DNA from: Betaproteobacteria bacterium
GTDB taxonomy: Bacteria > Pseudomonadota > Gammaproteobacteria > Burkholderiales > SG8-41
Reading direction: 5' to 3'
DNA length: 41,091 nucleotides
NCBI GenBank assembly: GCA_016192825.1
Contig: JACPTK010000003.1
Span: 1 to 41,091 of the forward strand
The notes below the pieces were generated by a model. The model saw only the letters and a program-made list of their open reading frames with translations, searched no databases and was not told the origin of the DNA. Positions 27,062-41,091 of the stretch are shown here, one piece after another (the stretch's first letter is position 1; each line of letters opens with the position of its first letter). Made by a program: the position numbers and the translations under genes.

Positions 27062-30000
27062 GTGAATCTGAACGACACCCTGCTCGCCCTGCCCCCGCAG
27101 CAAGTCACGCTCGACGTGCTGCTGGAAAAATACGCCAAGGGCGGCGAGAAGAGCGTCGAGGACGTGCGCCGGCGGGTCGCGCGCGCGCTCGCGGCGGTCG
27201 AGAAGGATGCCGCGCGCTGGGAGCGGGTGTTCTACGAAGCGCTCGAGAACGGCTTCATCCCCGGCGGGCGCGTCAACTCCGCCGCCGGCACGCCGCTCCA
27301 GGCAACCCTCATCAACTGCTTCGTGCAGCCCGTCGGTGATTCCGTCTCGGAGACCGTGGACGGCAAGCCCGGCATTTACCTTGCGCTGATGGAGGCCGCC
27401 GAGACCATGCGCCGCGGCGGCGGCGTCGGCTACGACTTTTCCGCGATCCGTCCGAGGGGCGCGAAGGTGCGCGGCACCGACAGCACCGCGAGCGGACCGG
27501 TGTCCTACATGCGCGTGTTCGACAAGAGCTGCGAGACCGTGGAGTCCGCCGGCTCGCGCCGCGGCGCGCAGATGGGCATCCTGCGCTGCGACCATCCCGA
27601 CATCGAAGGTTTCATCCACGCCAAGGACCAGGGCGAGCTCAAGAATTTCAACGTGAGCGTGGCGGTGACCGACGCCTTCATGCGCGCGGTCGAGCAGGAC
27701 GCCGAATGGGAGCTTGTGCACCAGCAGCCGCCCGCGCCGGATTTCGAGGGCGAATTCCGCCAGCGTGCCGACGGAATGTGGGTGTACCGCAGGGTGAAGG
27801 CGCGCGATCTGTGGCAGCAGATCATGGAATCCACCTACGACCACGCCGAGCCGGGCGTGTTCTTCGTGGATCGCGCCAACGCCGACAACAATCTTTCTTA
27901 CGCGGAGAAAATCGAGGCGACCAATCCGTGTGTCACCGCAGACACACGGCTGCACACACAATACGGACTTGCTCCCATCGGTGATCTGCATTCCACCGGC
28001 GCGGCGCTGCAAGCAACGGTTGACTTGCGCGCCTTGGGACAACACAGCAGTGGCGTGACGCTACGGCCAGCCGTACCAGCTTTCATGACCGCACGCGCGG
28101 CAGATGTCTATCGCGTCGAGACGGTCGATGGTTACGAAATCAAGGCAACCGCTTGGCACGACTTCTATACCACGCACGGCAAGATCAAACTCAAGGACCT
28201 CAAACCAGGCGACGAATTGCTGGTTCAGTCCGGCAAAGGACAGTTCGGCAGCGAGGGCAGCGGTGAGATCGGGTTGCTGATCGGTTTAATCACGGGTGAT
28301 GGCCACTTTACGAGCCGCGGGAATGGGGAAGAGGCGGCAATCATCAATTTCCGGGGCGAGGATCGTGAGTTCGCCCCCCCAGTAGCCGGTCACGTTAATA
28401 CCGCGATCGCGGGCCTCGCGTTGGCGCCTCGTAGCTATCGAGTCACCCCGACCGCCGTTCCTGAACGAAATCACGTCTTCGCCCGCTCTGTGCTGCTCGC
28501 CCGTTTCCTCGAGCATTACGGGTTTACCGCTGCCACGAAATTGCGAGTGCCCGAGGTTGTCTGGCGTGGGAACGAGGACTGCGTAAAGGGCTACTTGCGC
28601 GGGTTGTTCCAGACCGACGGCACCGTCGATATTTCCGGCGCAAGCCAGAGTTGTTCGGTTCGCCTCGCCTCCAGCGAGCCCAATCTGCTGAAAGACGTCC
28701 AGGTGCTGCTCGCCAATTTCGGCATCTTTTCCCGGATCCGCAAGCGGCGGGATGCGGGCACCCGCCTGATGCCGGATGGGAAAGGCGGACAACGGCTGTA
28801 CGCATGCCGCGCCGATTACGAACTCATCATCGATGGGAAGTCGCGCGAGCATTTCATGCGGGAAATCGGGTTTCACTCCGATGCCAAGAACGCGAAGTAC
28901 CGGCAATGGGTGAAGGACAAGGCGTTGCTCAAGTCGCAGCCGTTTGTCACCAAAGTAGCAGCCATCACTTACGTGGGGCGCGAAGCGGTTTACGACACCA
29001 CACAAGCCGATCACAACACGGTAATCTTCAACGGGCTGGTCACGGGGCAATGCGGCGAGCAGCCTTTACCGCCCTACGGCTGCTGCTGCCTCGGCTCGAT
29101 CGACCTGACGCCGTTCGTGCGCGAGCCGTTCGGCGCGAGCGCGCGCTTCGACTTCGAGGCGTTCGGTAAAGTCGTGCGCCCGGCCGTGCGCATGCTCGAC
29201 AACGTGCTCGACGCGACCGTGTGGCCGCTCGAGCACCAGCAGGCGGAGGCGCGCGCCAAGCGCCGCGTGGGGCTCGGCTACACCGGGCTGGGTGACGCGC
29301 TCATCATGCTCGGCCTGCGCTACGACACGGACGAAGCGCGCCGCATGACGGCGAGAATCGCGGAGACGATGCGCGACGAGGCCTATGCCGCCTCGGTCGG
29401 GCTCGCGAAGGAAAAGGGCGCGTTCCCCGCGCTCGACGCCGAGCAGTACCTCGCCGCGCCGCGCTTCGCCTCCCGGCTGCCGGAGCGCCTGAAAAACGAC
29501 ATCCGCAAGCACGGACTGCGCAACAGCCATCTTCTGTCGATCGCGCCCACCGGCACGATCTCGCTCGCCTTCGCCGACAACGCCTCCAACGGCATCGAGC
29601 CCGCGTACGCCTGGAGCTACCAGCGCAAGAAGCGCATGCCCGACGGCTCGATGAAGACCTACGACGTGGAGGACCACGCGTGGCGGCTCTACCGGCACCT
29701 CGGCGGCGATGCGGAGAAGCTGCCGCCGGCGTTCGTCACCGCGATGGACATCTCCGCGCTCGACCACATGCGGATGGTGGCCGTGGCCGCCCCGTACGTG
29801 GACTCCGCGATCAGCAAGACGGTGAACGTGCCCGAGGACTATCCCTACGAGCAGTTCAAGGATCTCTACCTCGAAGCCTGGAAGGCGGGGCTCAAGGGCA
29901 TCACGACCTACCGTCCCAACAAGGTGCTCGGGAGCGTGTTGTCGGTCGCCCCGCAGGCGGAACAGCCGAACGATCTGGACACCACCGACACCGACCGCCG

Positions 30001-31027
30001 GCTGCGGCTGGAGGTCGCGCCGCAACCCGCGCTTGCCAGCCTGCGCTGGCCGGGCCGGCCGAAGCTCGCCGCCGGCAACCTGTCATGGACCTACATGGTG
30101 GAGTCGCCCTTCGGCCAGTTCGCGATCTTCGTCGGCCACGTCGAAAACGGCGAGCCGTTCCCGTTCGAGGTGTGGGTGAACGGCACCGAGCAGCCGCGCG
30201 GCCTCGGCGCGGTCGCCAAGACGCTCTCGATGGACATGCGGGCGCAGGACAAGGCGTGGCTCCGGATGAAGCTCGACATCCTCGCGCGCACCACCGGCGA
30301 CGATGCCTTCGACTGCCCGATGCCGCCCGACGGCGAGGTGCGGCGCGTGCCGAGCGCGGTGGCGGCCTTCGCGCGCATCGTGCGCTACCGCGTGGACCAG
30401 CTCGGCGCGCTCGCGAAGACGGACGGAAGGTCCCCGGTGCTCGAGGCGCTCTACGCCAGGAAAGAGCCCAAGACCGGCACCGACGGCACCATGTCGTGGA
30501 CCGTGGACGTGCACAATCCGCGCGCGGGCGACGATTTCGTGCTGATCCTGAAGGAGCTGATGCTGCCCGGCGGGCACCGCCGGCCGTACTCGGTGTGGAT
30601 GGCGGGCGAGTACCCGCGCGCGCTCGACGGGCTGTGCAAGCTGCTCTCGCTCGACATGCGGGTGATCGACCCGGCGTGGATCGGCATGAAGCTGCGCAAG
30701 CTCCTCAATTACGCCGAGCCGCTCGGCGACTTCATGGCGCGCGTGCCGGGCGAGAGCCGGCAGCAGAATTTCCCGAGCACGATCGCCTACTGCGCGCGCC
30801 TGCTCATCCACCGCTACGCGATGCTCGGCGTGCTCGACGAGCGCGGCTATCCGCTCTTCGAAATGGGCGTGCTCGAGATCCCCGAGGACGACCGGGTCGA
30901 GGCGCGCGGCGCGCAGTACCAGATCCTGCACGGCAAGAAGTGCAAGGAGTGCGGCAACGCGGCCGTGATCCACAAGGACGGCTGCGAGTTCTGCACCGCG
31001 TGCGGCGCCATCGGCGCCTGCGGCTAG
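27062..31027 (+). CDS. nrdJ: Adenosylcobalamin-dependent (class II) ribonucleotide reductase with intein
   Basis: This enzyme makes deoxyribonucleotides using a B12-generated thiyl radical and does not need oxygen. The 1321-residue precursor contains an intein at 290-663, so the mature enzyme is about 947 residues. Extein landmarks are the redox Cys in TLINCFVQP (C86), [29 protein letters not shown], the active-site [17 protein letters not shown] interrupted by the intein, and [22 protein letters not shown]. Two TSCPD repeats follow (about 980-1110 and 1140-1265), then a Cys-rich tail ([13 protein letters not shown], last Cys two residues from the end) that acts as the redox relay in the family. 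The start is GTG at 27062, after GAGAGAAG; the overlapping ATG is followed at once by TGA. The TAG stop belongs to a repeat element. An FNR box lies upstream. Confidence 0.95.
27929..29050 (+). mobile_element. Intein with LAGLIDADG homing endonuclease in nrdJ
   Basis: In-frame 374-codon insertion between the Pro and Cys of the RNR motif [12 protein letters not shown]. The N-terminal splice block is [13 protein letters not shown] (Cys1), block B is IKATAWHDF (T363/H366 of the precursor), and the endonuclease blocks are [11 protein letters not shown] (Asp 413) and [11 protein letters not shown] (Asp 519). The C-terminal blocks are [10 protein letters not shown] and [11 protein letters not shown]. 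The last residue is Gln, not Asn, and the one before it is Gly, not His. The +1 residue is the catalytic Cys of the reductase. Codon usage is less GC-biased than the exteins, consistent with horizontal arrival. Confidence 0.95.
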
Positions 31028-37636: not shown

Positions 37637-38335
37637 ATGAAGGATCGAAAGGAGTTCAAGCAGGGCCGGCGCACGGCGCTGCGCGCCTCGCTCGCGCTCG
37701 GCGCCGCCGCGGCGGCGCTGCCGGCGGCGCCGGCAATGGCTCAGCGCGGGCGCACCCTGGAACGCGCGCCGCTGGGCGCCACCGCCGAGGAAAAGCGCGT
37801 CCTCTCCGTCCTCGACGATGTCTATCGCAATCACCGCTACCTGAGCGTGCCGGAGGAGGACGGGCGGCTGCTGCGCCTCCTCGCCGATTCGGCCGGCGCG
37901 AAGCAGGTGGTGGAGGTCGGCACCTCGACCGGCTACTCCGGGCTGTGGCTCCTGCTCGCGCTCGCGCGCACCGGCGGCCGGCTCACCACCTACGAGGTGG
38001 ACCGCGGACGCCATGACATGGCGCGGCACAATTTCGAGCGGGCGGGGCTGCTCGGGCACGCGACGCTGGTGCTCGGCGACGCGCACGCCGAAGTCACGAA
38101 GCTCAAGGGACCGCTCGACCTCGTCTTCCTCGACGCCGACAAGGAAGGCTATCCCGACTACCTGCAGAAGCTCGCGCCGCTGGTGCGGCCCGGCGGGCTC
38201 ATCGTCGCGCACAACATGGCCTCGCCCCCGCCCGACCCGCGCTACGTCGAAGCGGTCACGACGAACCCGGCCTACGACACGGTGTTCCTCAACATGCATG
38301 CGGCGGGGGTGGGCGTCACCCTCAAAAAACGTTAA
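37637..38335 (+). CDS. O-methyltransferase with Tat-type N-terminus
   Basis: This SAM-dependent class I methyltransferase of the catechol/caffeoyl-CoA O-methyltransferase group has 232 residues. Motif I is VVEVGTSTGYSGLWLLLAL, the metal/acid motif LVFLDADKEGYPDYLQ, and the SAM loop LVLGDAHAEVTKL. The N-terminus has KQGRRTALRASLALGAAAAA, a twin-arginine-like signal followed by a hydrophobic stretch and an AMA-type cleavage site. Relatives are often annotated as exported, which conflicts with the use of SAM. It is the last gene before the attC-bearing region, ending 20 bases before the first attC-like site, and has a GGAG ribosome binding site. Confidence 0.9.
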   Translation: MKDRKEFKQGRRTALRASLALGAAAAALPAAPAMAQRGRTLERAPLGATAEEKRVLSVLDDVYRNHRYLSVPEEDGRLLRLLADSAGAKQVVEVGTSTGYSGLWLLLALARTGGRLTTYEVDRGRHDMARHNFERAGLLGHATLVLGDAHAEVTKLKGPLDLVFLDADKEGYPDYLQKLAPLVRPGGLIVAHNMASPPPDPRYVEAVTTNPAYDTVFLNMHAAGVGVTLKKR

Positions 38336-38354
38336 AGCCGGACGCTACGCGCCG

Positions 38355-38406
38355 GTTTAACTCCGCGCGTAGGAACCGACGCCGCCGCGCTGCTCAACGC
38401 GCGGGA
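38355..38406 (-). other. attC-like site, third (left end of the cassette array), degenerate
   Basis: On the minus strand the R' box is GTTAAAC (plus 38355-38361), fitting GTTRRRY. The inner L boxes are TCCGCGCGT (38362-38370) and ACGCGCGGGA (38397-38406), which pair with one extra base, as attC stems do. No convincing R'' box is visible toward the UPF0158 gene, so the site may be degraded or a chance match. If real it marks the left limit of the cassettes, 20 bases from the methyltransferase stop codon. Confidence 0.45.
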
Positions 38407-38434
38407 ATTCCATCAGCAATCGAGTCGAGTGCGG

Positions 38435-38863
38435 TCAGCTATCGAGCTTAATGCCGCGGTCCTCGCACCAATCCCGCAGCGCGTTCTTCTGGGCCGTTGC
38501 CTCATATTCGTACCACTGTTGCAACGTGCCGCGGTGTTCCAGCAAATCCTTGAAGCGCGCATAGGCCTTCGGACGTCGAAAGATTTCCCGTACCCTGTCC
38601 AGCGCGTCCGGCATGAATCCCCCCGCAAATTTCAACACCAGCGGCTTGCCAAGACCGAGATCATTCTTGTGCGGAATCGGAATGTACTTTTCAGGGTCCT
38701 CGATGTCGTCCGGCAGCGGCTCTTCATTGTCCCCGTATTCGCTATGCCAATGGATCTCGCCGGTCTTCGTGCAGAGGTACGCTTCATGCTCCCCCGGCTG
38801 CCCGAAGCTGACGAACTCGAAGGCCTCAAGCAGCGCGTCAAACCTTGCCGTCGGACCGGTCAT
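38435..38863 (-). CDS. UPF0158 family protein (integron cassette gene)
   Basis: Small cytoplasmic protein of 142 residues matching UPF0158 (also called DUF2185-like in some sets; only the UPF0158 assignment is intended here). The N-terminus is MTGPTARFDALLEAFEFVSF. It has the typical YLCTKTGEIHWHSEYGD, an acidic patch PLPDDIEDPEKYIPIPHKNDLGLG, and ALRDWCEDRGIKL at the end. The start is placed at 38863, directly after an attC R' box; an upstream in-frame codon would read through the attC. The biochemical function is unknown. It appears as a lone gene in a cassette, a common lifestyle for this family. Confidence 0.85.
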   Translation of the reverse strand: MTGPTARFDALLEAFEFVSFGQPGEHEAYLCTKTGEIHWHSEYGDNEEPLPDDIEDPEKYIPIPHKNDLGLGKPLVLKFAGGFMPDALDRVREIFRRPKAYARFKDLLEHRGTLQQWYEYEATAQKNALRDWCEDRGIKLDS

Positions 38864-38871
38864 CCCCTGAT

Positions 38872-38944
38872 GCCCAACATTCGCGGTGAAATGTGTGTCC
38901 GAGCGGCGATGCTCGCAGAGCGTCATTCTCGACCGCGGTTAGGT
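38872..38944 (-). other. attC site, second, between DUF2442 and UPF0158 cassettes
   Basis: On the minus strand: R'' ACCTAAC (plus 38938-38944), L-box arms CGCGGTcGAgAATG and CATTTCACCGCG that pair with two extra bases, then R' GTTGGGC (plus 38872-38878). The length of 73 bp is normal for attC. The DUF2442 stop codon TAA lies within R'' and the UPF0158 ATG follows R' by 8 bases, both typical of cassettes. Confidence 0.75.
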
Positions 38945-39208
38945 GCTGGATCGCGCCACCAGCGGGAACTTCCCGGGATGGCGGATGGATTCGACGGCCA
39001 GATCCACATCGAGGTCGGGCCAGTAGAGGTGGTGCGGTTGAGGACGAACGACGTTCGTGAGCTTGGCGATTGGAGCGTCCTTGAACCAGGGAAACTGCGA
39101 AAAAGGCACGAACAACTCCTCGGCTCCCAGCATCAGCCAGAAGTCGTGAGTCGAGACGTTCGTGACCTCAACGTCCAAAGTGCCTGCGCCAGGCAGCACG
39201 GATGTCAT
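38939..39208 (-). CDS. DUF2442 domain protein (cassette gene)
   Basis: A protein of 89 residues with the DUF2442 pattern: VTNVSTHDFWLMLGAEELFV, then FSQFPWFKDAPIAKLTNV and RPQPHHLYWPDLDVDLAVESIRHP. Members are found next to DUF4160 genes, and the pair is often suspected to be a toxin-antitoxin-like unit, without proof for this family. It starts at ATG 39208 inside the downstream part of the DUF4160 reading frame (a 41-base overlap with the read-through frame), so the two were made to be translated together. It ends in the attC R'' box. Confidence 0.85.
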   Translation of the reverse strand: MTSVLPGAGTLDVEVTNVSTHDFWLMLGAEELFVPFSQFPWFKDAPIAKLTNVVRPQPHHLYWPDLDVDLAVESIRHPGKFPLVARSST

Positions 39209-39407
39209 GTTCGTGTTTCCGGATCAGAGCCTCGGCCGCCCGAATCTAGCGGTCGTTCAGGCCGTAATTCTGCGCCAGTTCGATCACCGGCTCAAGCCAG
39301 AACTTCGCTTCCCCGTCCGCGTGGTTCACATGGACGTGGAGCCGTGATTCCTCGCGAGAGAAAAAGAAGAAACGAACTCCGTCCTCGCGAAAGATTGTCG
39401 GGCTCAA
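39168..39407 (-). pseudogene. DUF4160 gene with in-frame amber stop
   Basis: The reading frame starts at TTG 39407, six bases after GGAAGAA, and reads SPTIFREDGVRFFFFSREES, then RLHVHVNHADGEAKFWLEP and VIELAQNYGLNDR, the DUF4160 fold. TAG at 39246-39248 stops it after 53 residues. In the same frame past the TAG the sequence IRAAEALIRKHEHDI then RAAWRRHFGR up to TGA (39168-39170) is the normal DUF4160 C-terminal helix. The full gene would be 79 residues, so the frame is almost certainly a family member with a nonsense change, or it is decoded by suppression. It starts 16 bases after an attC R' box. Confidence 0.8.
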
Positions 39408-39423
39408 GGGCTATTCTTCCGGC

Positions 39424-39510
39424 ACCTAACGTCATGCTGTGCGGCGGGCCGCCACGGTGCTGAAAAATGGTACGCCGCTTCCGGCCCGTCCGCACCAACT
39501 AAAGTTAGGC
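39424..39510 (-). other. attC site, first, downstream of the decarboxylase cassette
   Basis: The best attC of the window, 87 bp. On the minus strand: R'' GCCTAAC (plus 39504-39510), L arms GTGCGGaCGGGCCG and CGGCCCGCCGCAC pairing over 13 bp with one extrahelical A, then R' GTTAGGT (plus 39424-39430). The decarboxylase gene ends 57 bases upstream, and the DUF4160 frame starts 16 bases after R'. Confidence 0.9.
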
Positions 39511-39566
39511 AGATAGCTCACTTCGACCTGTCTTGTTGATTCAAATATTCCTCCCGGGGATTCGCA

Positions 39567-40784
39567 TTAGCTCGCCAACCTCTGGATCGCCGCTCGCACC
39601 TGCTCTGCGAGGGCCAGCGGGTCAGCGTTCGGATTGGCGGCAACGTTGCGCAGCCATTTCTCGCCTTGGATGGTGGTAAATGAAGTTGATCCGGCAGGCA
39701 GCGCCTCTTGGAGGCGCTCGGTCGGCACACGCGATGCCCGCCATGCCAACACGCCGGTGACCGGTGGTGAAAATAATTCGATGCCCCCTTGTTCGGTGAT
39801 GTGCCGTGCGAACTCTTGCATGTGCGTGAGGCAGCGTTCAATGCGCGCCGCGACGCCGCTGCGTCCGAATGCGAGGAGGGTGGCGAGCAGGGGCACTGCC
39901 GTGGCGCCATGCGACCCTAGCAAGCCAACATTGGGTGTTGCCAGGTACGCACCCGCGAAACTGATCGCCTCGTTCGCGCGGTTTGCTTCGCGGAACAGAA
40001 TCAATGCCGATTCCTTCGGCTGGAATAGCCACTTGTGGGCCGAAATCGCCACCGAATCCGCGCGCTCGATGCCGGCGAGCACCTCGGCATGTCGCTCAGA
40101 GAGCCGTAGTGGGCCGGCCCAGGCCGCGTCAACGTGGGTCCACGCCGCCTGGCCGATGATGTCCAGCGGATCAACTGCGCCAACGCTGGTGGTACCGGCG
40201 GTCAGCACCAGGCAGGCGCGCTTGAGGTCACCCAGCGCGTTCGCTTGCAGGCGACCGAGCACGTCGGTCTCGACTGGGCGGTAGCGCATACCAAGCAGCC
40301 TGGCGGCTTTTTCGACCGAGAGGTGCGCCGCGCGGGAGGCTACCACCTCCTCGGCTCCAGCAGCATCGCGTGCTGCCCAGATGCCGGTCAGATTGGCCAC
40401 GGTCGAGCCTGGCACTAGATGACCACCATTCATACCGAAAAGCGGCGCCAACCAGTTCACTACGAGTGCTTCGAGATCGCGTGCCACCGGTGCAGTATCC
40501 GGGTGCAACAGGTTCTGATTCAGTGAGGCGTTCCACAGAGTGGTTGCCCAGGTAATCCACGGGGTCGGTGGATCCATGTGTGCCATCGCCAGCGCGCCAT
40601 CGAGTCGCTGCGCGCCGCCCAGTACCAGTGGCGCCAGCTGCCGTAGGGTGGCGGCTTCTCCGATGCCCGTATCCGGCAGGCTCATGGGCAGCACAGCCTT
40701 ATCACCGCCTTGACCACGCGCCAGCAGCAAGGCCAGCGCTTGGCCGAGCGCCTCGCTGTCGGCCACGAAAGCGGGATCAATCAA
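39567..40784 (-). CDS. PLP-dependent decarboxylase (group II), integron cassette gene
   Basis: A pyridoxal-phosphate fold of 405 residues of the aspartate/glutamate/aromatic-amino-acid decarboxylase family. The PLP lysine is K251 in ISAHKWLFQPK, preceded by the Asp/Ala pair THVDAAWAGPLRLS that contacts the cofactor ring. The Gly/Ser-rich GHLVPGSTVANLTGIWAARDA and LTAGTTSVGAVDPLD strands are family hallmarks. At 405 residues it is shorter than typical members (470-520). The amine product is unknown: the closest-looking groups include 2,4-diaminobutyrate, aspartate and tyrosine decarboxylases. TTG 40784, after a GGAG, is the likely start. It is flanked by attC-like sites on both sides. Confidence 0.85.
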   Translation of the reverse strand: MIDPAFVADSEALGQALALLLARGQGGDKAVLPMSLPDTGIGEAATLRQLAPLVLGGAQRLDGALAMAHMDPPTPWITWATTLWNASLNQNLLHPDTAPVARDLEALVVNWLAPLFGMNGGHLVPGSTVANLTGIWAARDAAGAEEVVASRAAHLSVEKAARLLGMRYRPVETDVLGRLQANALGDLKRACLVLTAGTTSVGAVDPLDIIGQAAWTHVDAAWAGPLRLSERHAEVLAGIERADSVAISAHKWLFQPKESALILFREANRANEAISFAGAYLATPNVGLLGSHGATAVPLLATLLAFGRSGVAARIERCLTHMQEFARHITEQGGIELFSPPVTGVLAWRASRVPTERLQEALPAGSTSFTTIQGEKWLRNVAANPNADPLALAEQVRAAIQRLAS

Positions 40785-40846
40785 TTGACGACTCCGTCGG
40801 ATTGGAAGGATGTGGCTCGATGCGAGCGACCGTTCTCCCTCTCATG

Positions 40847-40904
40847 GCCTAACGTGCCACGCTAGCCGGCGGCGCGCTTTCGCGGCGTCCGCGTTGAGCG
40901 TGTT
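40847..40904 (-). other. attC-like site at the cassette/IS110 junction, R'' apparently lost or altered
   Basis: On the minus strand R' is GTTAGGC (plus 40847-40853). The arms CACGCT (40858-40863) and AGCGTG (40897-40902) pair, and the GC-rich centre (ggcgcgctttcgcggcgtcc) has the look of the classical 59-base element. No clean R'' box is found beyond the outer arm; GCTCAAC (plus 40893-40899) is a poor candidate. The IS110-family leader begins at about this point. Confidence 0.6.
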
Positions 40905-40912
40905 GATACTGA

Positions 40913-41009
40913 TTGAGGCCCCCGTTTTCGGAGGGCTTGGTAGCTTGAGACTACCATTGAAGAACGTGTTTGCCGACACGACCATTCTTTTCCGAAAAGG
41001 AGGCCTCAA
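40913..41009 (+). ncRNA. Structured leader of IS110 element, candidate bridge RNA region
   Basis: Four pairings are seen. TTGAGGCC (40913-40920) pairs with GGCCTCAA (41002-41009) next to the start codon. Hairpins are GCCCCCG/CGGAGGGC (40918-40936, one bulged A, TTTT loop), TGGTAG/CTACCA (40938-40956) and CGTGT/ACACG (40965-40980). The first hairpin and the closing stem overlap by three bases and are alternatives. The IS110-group places its guide (bridge) RNA in this end, which suggests the assignment. Confidence 0.5.
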
Positions 41010-41091
41010 ATGCGATTCTATACCCGGCAGCATCGGCATTACTGCGGCGTGGACCTGCACGCGCGCACGATGTATGTGTGCGTGCTCGATC
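41010..41091 (+). CDS. IS110-family transposase, 5' fragment
   Basis: The 27 visible residues read MRFYTRQHRHYCGVDLHART and then MYVCVLD, the N-terminus of the IS110 transposase. Its RuvC-like DEDD domain begins with the first catalytic Asp in YCGVDLHA. A strong AAAGGAGG ribosome binding site (40997-41004) precedes ATG 41010. The rest of the gene lies beyond the window. Confidence 0.85.
   Translation, partial: MRFYTRQHRHYCGVDLHARTMYVCVLD

Follow-up and report, generated by a model that had tools for sequence, protein, structure and literature searches.

Does the right end of contig C92 carry part of a chromosomal integron, and if so, what lies at the two edges of its cassette array? The window, the whole stretch of 41,091 nucleotides analysed here (Betaproteobacteria bacterium, assembly GCA_016192825.1, contig JACPTK010000003.1), is contig C92 of a 5.1-Mb genome bin with 123 contigs (estimated completeness 96.17, estimated contamination 4.96). 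A preliminary description, made from the letters of the sequence, had reported four imperfect palindromes around three minus-strand gene units between positions 38355 and 40904, and had read them as integron attC sites. Each cassette consists of a gene or gene pair, usually promoterless, and a downstream attC. The bottom strand of attC folds to a hairpin, the integrase IntI reads the boxes and the extrahelical bases of this hairpin, and R' is the box where cassettes are joined. The right 2.7 kb of the contig is very probably the distal end of a chromosomal integron cassette array, cut by the assembly. The array end is of a known kind. It has three attC, not four, and the right one is interrupted by an insertion sequence (IS).

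attC sites and integrases

At 39424-39510 and 38872-38944, sequence reading and folding each showed a perfect RYYYAAC...GTTRRRY box pair, and the inner boxes are complementary. The window was scanned with strict settings, which allowed no box mismatch and required six or more of the 7 box pairs and an inner complement of six or more. Three places were found; 60 dinucleotide shuffles averaged 0.17 (maximum 2), and none of them had two strict places within 2.1 kb. The scan counted the third place as 40847-40899, where an internal GCTCAAC matches R'' by chance. The genuine R'' of this site was displaced by the IS, and the attC remnant is 40847-40902.

Covariance models of attC were built from sites of other genomes, where they lie beside IntI genes on the side of the array. 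Thirty-seven attC were curated and 36 were used, 10 from the same genus and 26 from elsewhere. These sites were picked by a box-and-stem scan and are therefore biased toward that form; their pairing was 75.0%, compared with 63.7% in shuffles. Model R1 was made from trimmed sites (25 + 25 bases). Model R3 used these 36 sites at full length, in an alignment of 64 positions with 9 pairs, and its training set holds no site of the own genome. With R3, the sites 39424-39510, 38872-38944 and 40847-40909 were the top three matches of the window, all on the minus strand. The fourth match (12.9 bits) was the 40847 site on the opposite strand, and the fifth had 11.9 bits. An array should have two or more attC that carry R''/L''/L'/R' boxes and share an orientation; here there were three minus-strand sites with R3 scores of 26-30 bits. 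A passage of PMC2727003 describes two extrahelical bases on the R''-L'' arm of attC, 6 to 8 nt apart. Both are clear by eye at 39424 (GTT-G-GTGCGG-A-C), and one extrahelical bulge is clear at 38872. We take 39424, 38872 and 40847 as attC sites of a less common shape.

These results uphold the preliminary description in its view of an integron-type cassette architecture on the minus strand and of the palindromes 39424-39510 and 38872-38944 as attC. Its palindrome at 40847-40904 is also an attC, but the end was set two bases too far.

Two IntI genes, with 481 and 478 bits, exceeded the TIGR02249 cut-off of 265 bits in this genome. They lie on contigs C2 and C37. Such genes were found in 73 of the 149 genomes searched, the own genome counted. 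On C37, three attC lie on the array side of IntI (29.2, 28.9 and 15.9 bits with R1). C2 stops about 300 bases beyond the IntI match, and its end (L021 10700-10962) reads like the start of what we take to be an IS91-type transposase. When R1 was run over the genome (150 candidates scored), attC were found on C113, C62, C102 and C37 at 29-33 bits. R3 on C37, C102 and C113 gave eight sites at 27-53 bits, five of them on C102 and C113. Toxin-antitoxin-like cassette genes were present on C37 (ParE-like) and C102 (ParE). C92, C102 and C113 have IS left-end pieces in common (96-98% identity), and these three contigs and C2 all carry copies of the dispersed repeat described below.

One of the two genomic IntI would have served the window array, which would run leftward from an attI beyond the contig end. 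The continuation may have been lost because the assembly broke at an IS110-type element that targets attC and has three pieces in this genome. On the left, the array stops beside a copy of the dispersed repeat, at the 3' side of a convergent methyltransferase gene.

Cassette genes and the IS in the right-hand attC

The features are collected in Table 1. Read leftward, the order is the decarboxylase cassette, the DUF4160 and DUF2442 cassette (one unit) and the UPF0158-like gene. Of the three gene units described before, two are whole cassettes and the third has no attC of its own. Stop codons had been placed in or near R'' and start codons shortly after R'. This applies to the DUF2442 stop (38939-38941), which is inside the R'' box (38938-38944), and to the UPF0158-like ATG (38861-38863), which follows R' (38872-38878) by 8 bases, but the decarboxylase stop is 56 bases before R''.

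Table 1. Features at the right end of the window
Feature	Position	Strand	Evidence and remarks
O-methyltransferase gene, chromosomal neighbour, convergent with array	37637..38335	+	PF01596 E 4.4e-24
Dispersed two-hairpin repeat copy, after convergent methyltransferase gene	38330..38405	+	R2 79.8 bits (copy included in model)
UPF0158-like (weak) last array gene, without own attC	38435..38863	-	PF03682 E 0.0019, 18.7 bits, under cut-off 21.1
attC site	38872..38944	-	R'' ACCTAAC, R' GTTGGGC; R3 27.4 bits, E 6.6e-5; unlisted by R1
DUF2442 cassette gene	38939..39208	-	PF10387 E 5.1e-15; stop codon within R''
DUF4160 cassette gene	39246..39407	-	PF13711 E 6.1e-9
attC site	39424..39510	-	R'' GCCTAAC, R' GTTAGGT; R3 30.0 bits, E 1.6e-5; unlisted by R1
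PLP-dependent decarboxylase cassette gene, 405 aa	39567..40784	-	PF00282 E 1.7e-31
attC of the cassette upstream, IS-interrupted just past R''; L''-variable terminal structure-L'-R' part left	40847..40902	-	R3 26.3 bits, E 1.2e-4 (whole window) for 40847-40909
IS110-type left end, runs off contig	40903..41091	+	Leader 40903-41009; transposase from 41010, 27 residues present

The best named homologue of the decarboxylase is from Lautropia sp. SCN 69-89 (64%). The best 80 of 210 homologous loci (52-64% identical) were compared. No attC-like site was found on the gene's strand within 400 bases downstream at any of the 80, and 78 also had none within 500 bases upstream. The other two had a weak one-mismatch look-alike within 500 bases upstream, which we take as chance. 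Close relatives with the same genes and no palindromes between them had been named as evidence against an array. For the decarboxylase this is literally the case (78/80), but the attC evidence is not undone by it, and homologues that are mostly without attC fit the capture of a widespread gene.

The O-methyltransferase gene has orthologues in 3 of 9 genus relatives. In the 560 bases after those three orthologues, neither array nor repeat was seen by eye, and these three neighbourhoods without the array count in favour of the reading as a cassette array. Further to the left, the open reading frame 27062-31027 (1321 aa) is, by eye, presumably a ribonucleotide reductase with an intein-like insertion. 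The Rfam search of the 41-kb window gave no family at threshold.

The right edge of C92 falls inside the IS110-type element, 189 bases into it. In the orientation of the array, the IS end (..CAGTATCAA) comes first, then six paired bases and then the first extrahelical base of the 40847 attC; therefore, the IS break sits just past R''. Homologous left ends were found at C113:30-148 (96%), C102:1513-1633 (98%, inner part only) and, in the relative G202, at G202:C25 (79%). By eye, the piece in the C102 array (L026) is an inner 121-base part of the IS left end that lacks the outer tip and most of the transposase gene. One and the same IS end, at one attC point, was seen by eye in the window, on C113, in G202:C25 (L165) and in an element of Salinivibrio (L197). 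The insertion points of the Catenovulum, Alteromonas and Pseudoalteromonas elements are compatible by eye, and the Manganitrophus element gave no clear picture. On the other side of the L197 and L201 elements, GTTAAGC and GTTAGGT were read, an R''-type box. Related IS110-type elements, among them L197 and L199-L201, appear to insert at one point of attC or attC-like sites here and in members of the Vibrionales and Alteromonadales, as judged from these junctions.

A DEDD transposase domain would be expected of an IS110-family element; the 27 transposase residues in the window had no Pfam match. Relatives of an 87-residue transposase piece of a homologue, on plasmids, are annotated 'IS110 family transposase'. 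In relatives, several hundred non-coding bases also follow the transposase gene. The single PF01548 match of the own genome, on C71, was by eye a different element and was rejected as a full copy of the window's IS. The fold of 40905-41012 had z = -4.45, and 0 of 200 shuffles were equally stable. The 107-base leader is a candidate guide RNA. Among seven loci searched with Rfam, L022 gave a tRNA and L201 a group II intron. According to sections of PMC11187229, the guide ('seek') RNA of IS1111 and IS110 elements comes from a non-coding region, and ISKpn4 and ISPst6 of the IS1111 family target attC. The leader, or the region after the transposase gene, may guide insertion into attC. Insertion at this point interrupts cassettes and can break assemblies there.

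The C37 array was also followed to its edge. After the R'' CCCTAAC-CC (L022 12424-12568), DNA of no recognised kind runs to the contig end, and the break point resembles that of the IS in other attC. A 73-aa open frame in this tail had no Pfam match. The tail may be the right end of the window's IS or of another attC-targeting element.

A dispersed repeat with an attC-like core

The fourth palindrome of the preliminary description, 38355-38406, does not hold as a degenerate attC. No R'' box was found there by eye, and R3 gave a background score of 4.0 bits at 38376-38404. The palindrome is covered by a copy of a dispersed repeat at 38330-38405. The neighbouring hairpin 38331-38367 had 10.9 bits with R3 on the plus strand (rank 6 in the window). 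At E<=10, with 40 of 99 candidates scored, the stretch 38318-38412 matched at least 43 places of the genome.

An alignment of 17 copies was used for model R2, namely the window copy and those of 16 of 19 further loci (L188, L191 and L193 excluded). It supports two hairpins: 94.5% of cells were paired, compared with 90.6% in shuffles, and 11 pairs were changed on both sides, compared with 2.5 in shuffles. R2 gave 57 matches at E<0.01 and 66 at E<=1 in the own genome, on many contigs (150 candidates scored). Over 60 genomes, the own genome counted (E<=0.1), matches were found in 10/10 of the genus, 19/26 of the rest of the family and 3/24 of other families. Several copies lie directly after stop codons by eye. 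On C92 and C102 the array end has a copy beside it; at the array end of C113 none was noticed. The genus members G006 and G008, in which no IntI exceeded the cut-off, had 35 and 78 matches. Within the limits of incomplete bins, these copies without a detected IntI speak against a spread of the repeat by IntI. A RAYT-linked repetitive extragenic palindromic (REP) sequence was also considered and rejected, as 0 of 8 Y1 transposase (PF01797) matches lay within 5 kb of the listed repeat copies.

The second hairpin of the repeat resembles the attC core. On a first attC-core profile, its consensus scored 21.35, and the 36 attC that made the profile, genus sites included, scored 4.7-28.9. Of 200,000 control hairpins that kept this architecture but had their pairs shuffled, 31 reached 21.35. 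With a profile of the 26 non-genus attC, 22,653 bulged hairpins in 116 kb of the own genome had a maximum of 16.8; this background includes at least two copies of the repeat. Thirteen of the 19 repeat loci exceeded 16.8, twelve through the repeat itself and one, L193, through an adjacent hairpin; six did not. When R1 was run on the 19 loci, 8 of 18 matches (E<=5) overlapped the repeat, weakly, at 8-15 bits. The alignment of repeat to attC was chosen by eye, so the core scores are optimistic.

It is conceivable, but in our view rather doubtful, that hairpin 2 shares its ancestry with the attC core (L-box stem, extrahelical base, 6-bp stem, extrahelical A). The likeness may reflect relics of attC, a source of attC or convergence. 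If the relationship is true, attC-like hairpins would be plentiful behind ordinary genes on genus chromosomes, as a large pool that consists either of relics of cassette insertion or of raw material for new cassettes. The core bears on the open question of where attC and new cassettes originate. No paper on dispersed or origin-related attC repeats was found, with most subscription journals outside the search, so that their absence is unproven.

Alternative readings and known systems

Several points weigh against the reading of the right end as an array cut by the assembly. Neither IntI nor attI was found inside the window. R1 listed neither the 38872 nor the 39424 site in the window, and its scores for 40847-40899 were 11.8 bits (plus strand) and, for a partial match, 8.2 bits (minus strand). 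The 38872 site has a 5' spacer of 0 bases. At 40847, the first bulge is clear by eye, with mismatches in the stem above. R3 was a second try, built after the failure of R1, and it partly rewards the same boxes because its training sites were box-scanned and it has only 9 base pairs. Our guess is that R1 was defeated by the long hairpin tops and odd spacers of 38872 and 39424. C92 and C37 are connected solely by bin membership, and the bin is in 123 contigs with a contamination estimate of 4.96%. The check proposed beforehand, at least three attC on one strand together with IntI, succeeded with R3 and the two genomic IntI and failed with R1.

The misses of R1 would be expected if ordinary genes were separated by palindromic terminators or REP-like repeats that are merely attC-like; the high GC content of the genome also points this way, as does the one palindrome of the four that is such a repeat. 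We regard this as extremely improbable, since the three sites stand at 26-30 bits with R3 while the rest of the 41 kb is at or below 12.9, and since box pairs at such density were found in 0/60 shuffles. Sites shaped like 39424 also occur on C113, on C102 and, in G001 of the same genus, within the array region (L162). The array could also be a cluster of attC sites lacking an integrase in cis (CALIN), whatever IntI is present elsewhere, which is a variant of the cut array. We consider it quite possible, though we would not expect it. No IntI is present in the 38 kb to the left of the array, and arrays appear, by reading, to end beside other genes on C92, C102 and C113. Only two IntI were found for these three array ends; therefore, at least one array may lack its own integrase. 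However, the side expected to hold IntI lies past the contig end, and draft assemblies inflate CALIN counts in this way, according to a passage by the IntegronFinder 2.0 authors (PMC9024848).

For the palindrome 38355-38406, a decayed attC of the UPF0158 cassette has to be weighed against a copy of the dispersed repeat. The site comes after the last cassette gene, and hairpin 2 has the attC-like core, in many copies with both extrahelical bases. A decayed attC is nevertheless very unlikely: the site belongs to a family with 57 matches (E<0.01) over many contigs, the repeat is oriented with the methyltransferase gene and not with the array, it has neither an R'' box nor an attC score, and the core of the window copy (14.7 on the first profile) is below the family consensus.

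The distal end of a cut cassette array can be compared with known systems. Sedentary chromosomal integrons and CALINs, as sections of PMC9024848 describe them, share with it a genomic IntI, several attC in the same orientation, and cassettes of unknown function or toxin-antitoxin-like kind. The window array differs in that it is split over contigs, in that no IntI or attI of its own was seen, and in that one cassette gene is 1.2 kb long. It is one more environmental chromosomal integron, and the IS group and the attC-like repeat matter more. The IS1111-attC elements ISKpn4 and ISPst6, in the parts of PMC11187229 and PMC11089894 that treat them, are likewise IS of the IS110/IS1111 kind that insert at one attC end. 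The plasmid relatives of the window element, in contrast, are annotated as IS110 family; the window element has a structured 107-base leader, and its relatives have the long non-coding stretch after the gene. Like the REP sequences described in a portion of PMC8266576, the repeat consists of dispersed imperfect palindromes in high copy, here as hairpin pairs. Unlike them, the repeat of this genus has no Y1 transposase near its listed copies, and its second hairpin carries an attC-like core.

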